A stretch of 45,733 nt of DNA from Thermoplasmatota archaeon (GTDB lineage Archaea > Thermoplasmatota > E2 > UBA202 > JdFR-43): assembly GCA_029259055.1 (NCBI GenBank), contig JAPDJP010000028.1:1-45733 (forward strand), in the 5' to 3' direction. Below are positions 6,412-20,222 of this stretch, piece after piece. Made by a program: the position numbers and the translations under genes. The notes beneath the pieces are model-generated. The model saw only the letters and a program-made list of their open reading frames with translations. It did not search any database and had not been told where the DNA came from. How positions within the stretch are numbered: the first letter of the stretch is position 1; the number at the start of each line of letters is the position of its first letter.

Positions 6412-7038
6412 TTAAAAATTAAATATATATTTACCTATTTTAATCAATTCTTTTAAATCTCTTTTCTTTACAGAAAAATCGGCGTATCTTTCCAAAATTT
6501 CGTCAGAATTAAAGGCAATTTTATATTTTGCTAATTTGAACACACATAAATCATACTTTGTATCCCCTACAACTATAACCTCATCTTTTTTAATCCCAAG
6601 TTTTTCCATTAAATTTTTTAAGACAATTTTTTTATTTTTAGGCGGAACCCTCAATATCCCTCTTATTGGTATATCTTCTTTAAATTCTATTCCATTTGCG
6701 AATATATAATCAATACCAAATTTTGCTATTCTTTTTGCAAGTATATCAATACCTCCAGAGATAATCGCTGTTTCCCCCCTTTCTTTAAAAAATTTTATGC
6801 ATTCTTTACTACCGGGGGTTAATTTAACTTCATTTAAAACTTTTAATATATCTTTTCTTTTTAATCCTTTCAATCTCCATCTCTCTATATCTTTATCTAT
6901 AAATTCTTGGTCATTAATTTTTCCTTTCTTATATAATTCTATCAAATCTCTATTATCTATACCATAAGCATTATGAATGAGCTTCCATGAACTTCTTTCC
7001 TTTATAAATACGCCATCCATGTCAAATACTATTAGCAT
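6412..7038 (-). CDS. HAD-superfamily phosphatase, SerB-like
   Basis: This is a 208-residue haloacid-dehalogenase hydrolase. Motif I is DMDGV with nucleophile D6 and D8. Motif II is IISGG, with Ser about 85 residues later. Motif III/IV includes K in KNKK and VVGDTKYD. The cap between motifs I and II is helical, as in phosphoserine phosphatases and related small-molecule phosphatases. The substrate cannot be read from the sequence. It is divergent from the NTPase gene through a 47-nt gap with one symmetrical TATA box, and is followed at once by DUF1614. Confidence 0.88.
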   Translation of the reverse strand: MLIVFDMDGVFIKERSSWKLIHNAYGIDNRDLIELYKKGKINDQEFIDKDIERWRLKGLKRKDILKVLNEVKLTPGSKECIKFFKERGETAIISGGIDILAKRIAKFGIDYIFANGIEFKEDIPIRGILRVPPKNKKIVLKNLMEKLGIKKDEVIVVGDTKYDLCVFKLAKYKIAFNSDEILERYADFSVKKRDLKELIKIGKYIFNF

Positions 7039-7055
7039 CTAAAATGCATATATTT

Positions 7056-7067
7056 TTTAAATTTAAA
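7056..7067. promoter_or_regulatory. Palindromic TATA box shared by two divergent genes
   Basis: TTTAAATTTAAA is a perfect 12-bp palindrome centred at 7061.5, inside a larger 9-bp inverted repeat (7048-7056 / 7065-7073). The HAD start codon (7038) is 23.5 nt away on one side and the NTPase ATG (7086) is 24.5 nt away on the other. This is the spacing expected for two leaderless transcripts from one TATA element. Confidence 0.6.
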
Positions 7068-7085
7068 ATATATTCATAGTTGAAA

Positions 7086-7631
7086 ATGATTATTCCAAAA
7101 ATTGGAATTACTGGTTTACCGAGAGTCGGGAAGACGGAGGGACTGATAAAAGTCATAAAGAGATTAGAAAATGAATATATATTTGGAGGAATGATTACAA
7201 AGAGCATAGAAGAAAATGGGGAAAGGGTGGGTTTTAAAATCGTTGATTGGTTAACGCAGGAAGAAAAACTTTTTGCCCACATAAGCATGGAATCATCCTA
7301 TCGAGTAGGAAAATATAAAGTGAATCTGAAAATACTAGAGGAATTTGGGATACCAGCAATTAAAAAAGCCATTGAAAGCGAAAATGTTGATATTGTAGTC
7401 ATAGATGAAGTTGGAAAAATGGAACTAGAGAGCAGAAAATTTAGAGAAGTTGTTAGGGAAGCATTGGATTGTGAGAAGCCCGTTCTACTTACATTACATA
7501 AAAAATCAAGAGATTCATTACTCCAAGATATTAGGAACATGAATAATGTAAGAATCTTTGAAATTACTCCAGTAAATAGAAACTTACTTCCATACAAAAT
7601 AGAAAAATTACTTAAGGAAGGATGGCCTTAA
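7086..7631 (+). CDS. THEP1-type nucleoside-triphosphatase
   Basis: This 181-residue P-loop NTPase is of the archaeal/thermophile THEP1 family, which hydrolyses NTPs and has an AAA-like fold. Walker A is GLPRVGKTE at about residues 10-18, and Walker B is VVIDEVGKME. The strongly conserved region after the P-loop (GGMITKSIEENGERVGFKIVD) is family-typical. A TTG two codons upstream (7080) is possible, but the ATG at 7086 is better placed relative to the shared TATA box. The 3' end overlaps trm1 by 10 nt, so trm1 is translated from the same mRNA. The physiological role of the family is not established. Confidence 0.92.
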   Translation: MIIPKIGITGLPRVGKTEGLIKVIKRLENEYIFGGMITKSIEENGERVGFKIVDWLTQEEKLFAHISMESSYRVGKYKVNLKILEEFGIPAIKKAIESENVDIVVIDEVGKMELESRKFREVVREALDCEKPVLLTLHKKSRDSLLQDIRNMNNVRIFEITPVNRNLLPYKIEKLLKEGWP

Positions 7632-8716
7632 TAAAAGAAGGAAAAGCAGAGATTTTCCTCGAAAAATTTCGCCCCTATAAAGGGCCGGGCAAAAGGCAGG
7701 CGGGATTTTATAATCCAACGTTAGAAATAGATAGAGATATAAACGTTATTTTTTGTCAGTATATTGTAAAGAAAGGGGCAAGAAATTTCCTGGATGGGCT
7801 GGCATCAACTGGAATAAGAGGTATAAGAATCGTGAAGGAAGTGGAAGGAGACTTTGAAATGGATATAAACGACTTAAATAAGAAAGCTTTTGGAATCATA
7901 AAAAAGAACATAGAAATAAATGGCATCGATGCAAATGCTTTAAATGAAAATTTTTGTATTTTAATGCACAAGAAAAAATACGATTATGTTGATATCGACC
8001 CTTACGGCTCTCCCATTCCATTCCTATCCTGCTTATTTAGAGGAATAAAAAGAAAAGCATATGTATCAATAACAGCAACAGATACAGCTACTCTGTGTGG
8101 TGTTTATAAAACAGCCTGTATAAGGAAATATGGTGCGATTCCTTTAAGAGGACAATCAATGAAAGAAATTGGAATAAGAATTCTTCTAGGTTATATTGCA
8201 AGGCAGGCGGGAGGGTTTGATTATAAATTTCACCCAATTTTAAGTTATGTTTGTAGCCATTTTTTTAGGATTTATGGTTTATTAGAAAAAGGAGCAAAAA
8301 AATCAAATGAATGCATAAATAAAATTGGTTGGGTATATTGGGACAATGGATGGAAGATTTGCGAATTTGAAAAGCCCCCAGCAAAAAAATTTGCCGGCCC
8401 CTTATGGATTGGCAATCTACATGATAAAAATTTTTTAGATGAAATGCCAGAAATATTGAAAGAAAAGAAATTTAAAAGCCAGAATGAAAAAGAAATCAAA
8501 AAATTGATTACATACTTTAAAAATGAAATAATACTTCCTCCCTTATTTTATGAAAGCAATTTTATTGCTAAGGAATTAAAAAGGAAGCAACCAAAATTAA
8601 ATTATATAATAGAGAAATTGAAGGAAAAAGGATATTTAGCAGGAAGAAGCCATTTTGCATCAAATGCTTTTAAAACAAATGCACCTTATAATGATATAGT
8701 TGAAATTTGGAAATGA
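7622..8716 (+). CDS. trm1: tRNA (guanine26-N2)-dimethyltransferase Trm1
   Basis: This SAM-dependent enzyme forms m2,2G at position 26 of tRNA. The N terminus has the family pattern EGKAEIFLEKFRPYKGPGKRQAGFYNP. The SAM-binding region is FLDGLASTGIRGIR (about residues 56-69), and the catalytic loop is DIDPYGSP at 124-131. The C-terminal half holds the Trm1-specific domain with KFAGPLWIGNLHDKNF. The 364-residue length is normal for an archaeal Trm1, perhaps slightly short. It is the middle gene of the NTPase-trm1-radical SAM operon, overlapping both neighbours. Confidence 0.96.
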   Translation: MALIKEGKAEIFLEKFRPYKGPGKRQAGFYNPTLEIDRDINVIFCQYIVKKGARNFLDGLASTGIRGIRIVKEVEGDFEMDINDLNKKAFGIIKKNIEINGIDANALNENFCILMHKKKYDYVDIDPYGSPIPFLSCLFRGIKRKAYVSITATDTATLCGVYKTACIRKYGAIPLRGQSMKEIGIRILLGYIARQAGGFDYKFHPILSYVCSHFFRIYGLLEKGAKKSNECINKIGWVYWDNGWKICEFEKPPAKKFAGPLWIGNLHDKNFLDEMPEILKEKKFKSQNEKEIKKLITYFKNEIILPPLFYESNFIAKELKRKQPKLNYIIEKLKEKGYLAGRSHFASNAFKTNAPYNDIVEIWK

Positions 8717-20177: not shown

Positions 20178-20196
20178 CTCTTTATAACTATAAAAA

Positions 20197-20206
20197 ATTT
20201 ATAAAT
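20197..20206. promoter_or_regulatory. Palindromic TATA box shared by DUF432 and phosphoesterase genes
   Basis: ATTTATAAAT is a perfect palindrome centred at 20201.5. It lies 24.5 nt from the DUF432 ATG (20177, minus) and 21.5 nt from the phosphoesterase ATG (20223, plus). No other TATA-like element better placed for either gene is apparent in the 45-nt gap. Confidence 0.5.
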
Positions 20207-20222
20207 TATTCTGATTACTTTT

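Follow-up and report, generated by a model that had tools for sequence, protein, structure and literature searches.

Two abutting TATA boxes as the probable basis of a conserved palindrome between divergent genes of a Thermoplasmatota archaeon

How can two genes, transcribed away from each other, be served from a very short intergenic gap, and what does the palindrome in the middle of that gap represent? The question is raised by a locus of a Thermoplasmatota archaeon, whose AT-rich genome of 1.34 Mb is divided into 37 contigs. The window, i.e. the whole stretch of DNA analysed here (45,733 nucleotides), is one of these contigs (C12, 1-45733). Three of its genes are concerned:

6412 to 7038, minus strand: putative HAD-IB phosphatase, phosphoserine-phosphatase-like, 208 aa (PF00702, E 6e-14)
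7086 to 7631, plus strand: THEP1-type nucleoside-triphosphatase (NTPase), 181 aa (PF03266, E 1e-50)
7622 to 8716, plus strand: Trm1, tRNA N2,N2-dimethylguanosine methyltransferase (PF02005, E 4e-91)

In profile searches, the NTPase passed the cut-off of NF010248 (190.6 bits, cut-off 156), and it has relatives of 72-82% identity. The HAD protein belongs to the HAD-IB group; the nearest model is the archaeal phosphoserine-phosphatase-like TIGR01491, for which it scores slightly below the cut-off (144.1 versus 151.9 bits). Trm1 overlaps the NTPase gene by 10 nt and was found near it in all 21 loci examined at the order level; the two genes are probably carried on one transcript. The start codons, ATG at 7038 (minus) for HAD and ATG at 7086 (plus) for the NTPase, are 48 nt apart and leave an intergenic gap of 47 nt. 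Since relatives start HAD at the same codon or close by, and the NTPase one codon upstream of 7086, both annotated starts are credible. An alternative NTPase start, TTG at 7080, was rejected, as relatives give it no support.

A palindromic TATA box centred between the two genes had been pointed out in the initial annotation, and both its position and its distances were confirmed: the centre of symmetry falls at 7061.5, and the ATG codons of HAD and the NTPase lie 23.5 and 24.5 nt away from it, respectively. The symmetric elements are as follows:

7056 to 7067, unstranded: TTTAAATTTAAA, a 12-bp palindrome of two adjoining TTTAAA hexamers, found exactly in 11 of 17 family genomes at the NTPase promoter
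7044 to 7056, unstranded: left arm of a wider repeat and also the region directly upstream of the HAD start (TATATGCAT on the minus strand), complementary to 7065-7077 at 12 of 13 positions
7065 to 7077, unstranded: right arm of the wider repeat and also the region directly upstream of the NTPase start (ATATATTCAT), complementary to the left arm at 12 of 13 positions

The element between the divergent starts is self-complementary over 14 bp (7055-7068), which lie inside a 24-bp palindrome (7050-7073) with a single mismatched pair, its arms 7050-7061 and 7062-7073 being 92% complementary. The wider inverted repeat spans 34 bp (7044-7077), with 12 of 13 pairs matching.

Short AT-rich gaps yield palindromes by chance, and the symmetry might be simply an artefact of composition. 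Of such AT-rich 47-nt gaps, 12-15% are expected to contain a palindrome of 12 bp or longer. At least 14 bp are reached in 4.4-6.3% of shuffled or Markov-simulated 47-nt gaps, and at least 14 bp centred within 1 nt in 0.24-0.38%. Our sample of divergent pairs comprised 65 pairs in 445,733 bases, one third of the archaeon's own genome, with uncurated gene starts from a simple ORF caller; with so many pairs, one centred palindrome is by itself unremarkable. Nor are the counts enriched: the window contains one copy of TTTAAATTTAAA versus 0.26 expected (19 of 100 shuffles also reach one), and the own genome contains it in five places versus seven for the reversed control. The remaining four copies, inspected by eye together with 60 nt to either side, showed no second such arrangement. 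Data from the own genome alone are weak evidence for the 12-mer.

Gaps of 41-47 nt were found in six of the 65 sampled pairs, and elsewhere in 2 of 29 divergent pairs in G003, 1 of 17 in G011 and 1 of 22 in G022; we do not claim an excess for this peak of gap lengths. In three of the six sampled pairs, a palindrome measuring at least 12 bp lies close to the middle. These are the HAD/NTPase pair, a second pair in the window (20177/20223) and a pair on contig C5, whose genes, named from the look of their sequence, we take to be response-regulator-like and PUS10-like. As a separate observation, a paralogue of the NTPase (L043, G000:C10:27479-27997; 44% identical) is divergent from its neighbour, presumably a formate-tetrahydrofolate-ligase-like gene, with a gap of 47 nt.

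Comparison with relatives speaks against an artefact. The NTPase is present in all 17 family genomes and the HAD gene lies head-to-head with it in 15. In 11 of the 17 (G000, G001, G003, G004 and G010-G016), representing 6 of 8 genera, the NTPase is preceded by the exact 12-mer, and in G010, G012 and G013 this copy is the only one in the genome. In the nine head-to-head genomes with the 12-mer, its 12 columns and the two Ts flanking it show no variation, unlike most codon and spacer columns; the rows were anchored on the 12-mer and are invariant there by selection, so the figure to rely on is 11 of 17. Because an identical 12-mer is conserved at the same place among relatives, amid variable columns, the artefact is contradicted and we consider it very improbable. 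From this conservation it follows that the palindrome is being maintained.

Its persistence follows the distance between the genes. All ten head-to-head genomes with gaps of 45-52 nt carry two TTTAAA hexamers, nine of them as the exact 12-mer; in the tenth, G006, one extra T separates the hexamers and breaks the exact symmetry. Where the gap is 57-98 nt (G002, G005, G007, G008 and G009, four of these five belonging to one genus), the second hexamer is retained in none of the five. A script measured the gaps of 13 head-to-head genomes; those of the other two, G001 (about 46 nt) and G006 (about 50 nt), were read by eye. The loss at wide gaps agrees with the prediction from fixed TATA-to-start spacing, by which the HAD box shifts together with the HAD start. 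Where the HAD start is farther off, or HAD does not adjoin as in sister families, the NTPase has the left hexamer only; at its position, sister families and other Thermoplasmata without a HAD match in the flank carry TTTTTAAA or TTTCTAAA. In G003 and G004 the NTPase is preceded by the complete 12-mer although HAD is located elsewhere, so the link between the right hexamer and HAD is not a strict one. The 12-mer of these two genomes may be left over from a former pairing; alternatively, the right hexamer may assist the NTPase as well. Phylogenies of the NTPase, HAD and Trm1 gave no resolved backbone and did not tell whether G003 and G004 lost the HAD neighbour.

Next, the gap was compared with promoters of the own genome. 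Its upstream regions (187 examined) are A-rich at -34 to -30 (BRE), followed by T at -28 to -26 and A at -25 to -23; counted from the start codon, the genome-wide TATA signal, TTTATATA, occupies -28 to -21. An A-rich BRE followed by TATA in this register is the leaderless pattern of this genome. Both genes conform to it in sequence: a TATA box precedes each start codon by about 25 nt, and a Shine-Dalgarno site is lacking in both. A promoter matrix (aAAAAaTTTATAtA, start mode -34), trained on 185 regions with the HAD and NTPase promoters excluded, located two candidate boxes:

7048 to 7061, plus strand: proposed NTPase BRE/TATA box (ATATATTTTTTAAA) with the left hexamer, 7056-7061; 4.0 bits, start at -38; in relatives that lack the HAD neighbour, TTTTTAAA or TTTCTAAA aligns with it
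7062 to 7075, minus strand: proposed HAD BRE/TATA box (GAATATATTTTAAA) with the right hexamer, 7067-7062; 5.3 bits, start at -37; retained by head-to-head relatives whose gap does not exceed 52 nt, lost from 57 nt upward

These best in-register boxes abut exactly between 7061 and 7062, the centre of the palindrome. Their scores are modest, the median best score over 379 genes being 3.2 bits. The usual AAAA BRE is absent from both, and the flanks, ATATAT and GAATAT, fit the A-rich BRE of the genome only weakly. Boxes of relatives, scored with the same own-genome-trained matrix, are modest throughout and shifted in register in several genomes; in G012-G015 the best HAD score (3.3 bits) lies on a slightly shifted register, and the NTPase box of G016 reaches 1.9 bits only.

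Since the best in-register boxes meet at the palindrome centre, two boxes back to back are preferred over one central box. The gap is probably a compact core promoter that serves two leaderless genes in divergent directions and is composed of two ordinary TATA boxes. TTTAAA at 7056-7061 would direct the NTPase-Trm1 operon rightward, and TTTAAA at 7062-7067, on the minus strand, the HAD gene leftward; the 12-bp palindrome results because two self-complementary hexamers abut. The BRE region of each gene would overlie the start region of the other, so that TBP-TFB-polymerase complexes of both directions should not assemble together, and on these steric grounds the two promoters likely fire in a mutually exclusive manner; balanced expression of phosphatase and NTPase, the alternative named in the initial annotation, is a conjecture. 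The sequence, its register relative to the starts and its conservation are observed, whereas the start sites, the hexamer used by each gene and the mutual exclusion are what we infer. That the promoter has been kept for the sake of this exclusion, the abutting hexamers tying the firing of the phosphatase to that of the THEP1-Trm1 operon with each initiation one-sided, seems unlikely to us. If true, selection across the Thermoplasmata family would preserve a steric switch, not merely two strong TATA boxes.

The initial annotation had instead proposed one box read in both orientations, i.e. a central symmetric TATA element (TAAATTTA, about 7058-7065) which TBP would bind either way, with TFB picking the direction. 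The symmetry centre, at about 24.5 nt from each start (exactly 24.5 and 23.5 nt), is where a single box would be expected, near the -24.5 centre of the genome's TATA octamer, and Pyrococcus furiosus offers a precedent with one TTTAAA-cored TATA, a BRE on each side and starts 49-50 nt apart (PMC6640164). However, when sites above 2 bits are considered, an in-register central octamer plus BRE appears in neither direction, whereas the half-boxes at 7048-7061 and 7075-7062 reach 4.0 and 5.3 bits. G006 possesses both hexamers without exact symmetry, and the outgroup NTPase uses the left hexamer alone. The single box is not well supported by these data, and we regard it as possible, though doubtful.

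The second pair of the window, 20177/20223, is a better example of a single shared box, since the box on one strand there covers precisely the same positions as that on the other; they score 11.0 and 7.9 bits. The genes of this minimal divergent pair encode an uncharacterised protein and a YfcE-type phosphodiesterase, and AATTTATAAATT lies at 20196-20207; as a palindrome the site is less conserved, and relatives mostly show wider spacing there. The description of the HAD/NTPase gap as a minimal divergent core promoter of two apparently leaderless genes stands, being consistent with the TATA register (-28 to -21), the lack of Shine-Dalgarno sites and the conservation. Its being called extreme does not, given the six of 65 pairs with similarly short gaps and the fully coincident boxes of this second pair.

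Returning to the two back-to-back boxes, one may ask whether something is superimposed on them. The palindrome and the wider repeat 7044-7077 could form an operator, at which a dimeric repressor or activator would co-regulate both genes atop ordinary TATA boxes. A symmetry spanning 34 bp, and the retention of the 12-mer where HAD no longer adjoins, would suit such a site. Against it, regulon searches with the 12-mer counted it in the own genome no more often than the reversed control (5 versus 7) and gave scattered hits within the family, with a single copy in each of G010, G012 and G013. Moreover, the arms coincide with start-region elements that are specific to each gene and are still present where the promoters are separated: TATATGCA of the left arm, upstream of HAD, is retained also in relatives with the two boxes separated, and the right arm lies where other Thermoplasmata carry TGCATTCATA or TGCATTACAT ahead of the NTPase. 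An operator appears quite improbable.

The NTPase upstream region has a further feature in distant Thermoplasmata (L099-L139 and others), where the 60 nt preceding the THEP1-type NTPase contain a widely conserved element, TTTCTAAAC-(~6)-TGCATTACAT. Among 44 such loci (L097-L139 and L152, one incomplete), 33 have TTTCTAAA at an almost constant distance, 29 have GCATTAC and 23 have the two together in strict form; the median identity at four-fold coding sites of these NTPase loci is only 33%. The combined pattern is present once each in five of eight genomes and is missing from the other three, and with up to three mismatches it revealed no regulon above control. Neither TTTCTAAA nor GCATTACA was found in 120 sampled upstream regions of G022, the one distant genome sampled in this way, whose profile displays Shine-Dalgarno-like G enrichment instead; most of its other genes have leaders of that type. 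The combined pattern thus resembles a promoter element that is peculiar to this gene and occurs throughout the class. TTACA is weakly enriched upstream of genes (11 versus 3 occurrences) and for this reason was left out of the model as a generic start-region element. Rfam searches detected no RNA in the window, L105 or L129, and two tRNAs only in L097.

A literature search of partial coverage found no title on divergent promoters of Thermoplasmata. The locus provides a clear, phylogenetically conserved example of what would be two archaeal core promoters fused in one palindrome, and illustrates that an operator-like palindrome can arise simply from fixed TATA-to-start spacing. The gaps of 45, 50, 57, 66 and 98 nt in relatives constitute a natural series for TATA-box competition.

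Symmetric divergent promoters of bacteria and archaea, in which directionality is lost because core elements are self-complementary, were reportedly described by Warman et al. in 2021, and the promoter presented here is like them in its self-complementary core element. The bacterial form relies on a -10 element with starts 18 bp apart (PMC10268837), whereas here the element is an archaeal TATA box and the distance about 48 nt. A further known system is the BRE-TATA-BRE arrangement of P. furiosus: PMC6640164 (Front Microbiol 2019) reports bidirectional transcription from one TTTAAA-cored TATA, with mapped starts 49-50 nt apart, and demonstration in vitro for one promoter. Both systems have a symmetric TTTAAA-cored element, and our start codons are 48 nt apart. 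In that source, however, the P. furiosus motif was analysed for head-to-tail genes and yields presumed non-functional antisense RNA, whereas here conserved protein genes lie both ways; and one TATA element is shared there, whereas ours is better read as two abutting hexamers. Two-way TATA promoters are already known in archaea; what is new here is a conserved case, with two abutting hexamers and two protein-gene targets.
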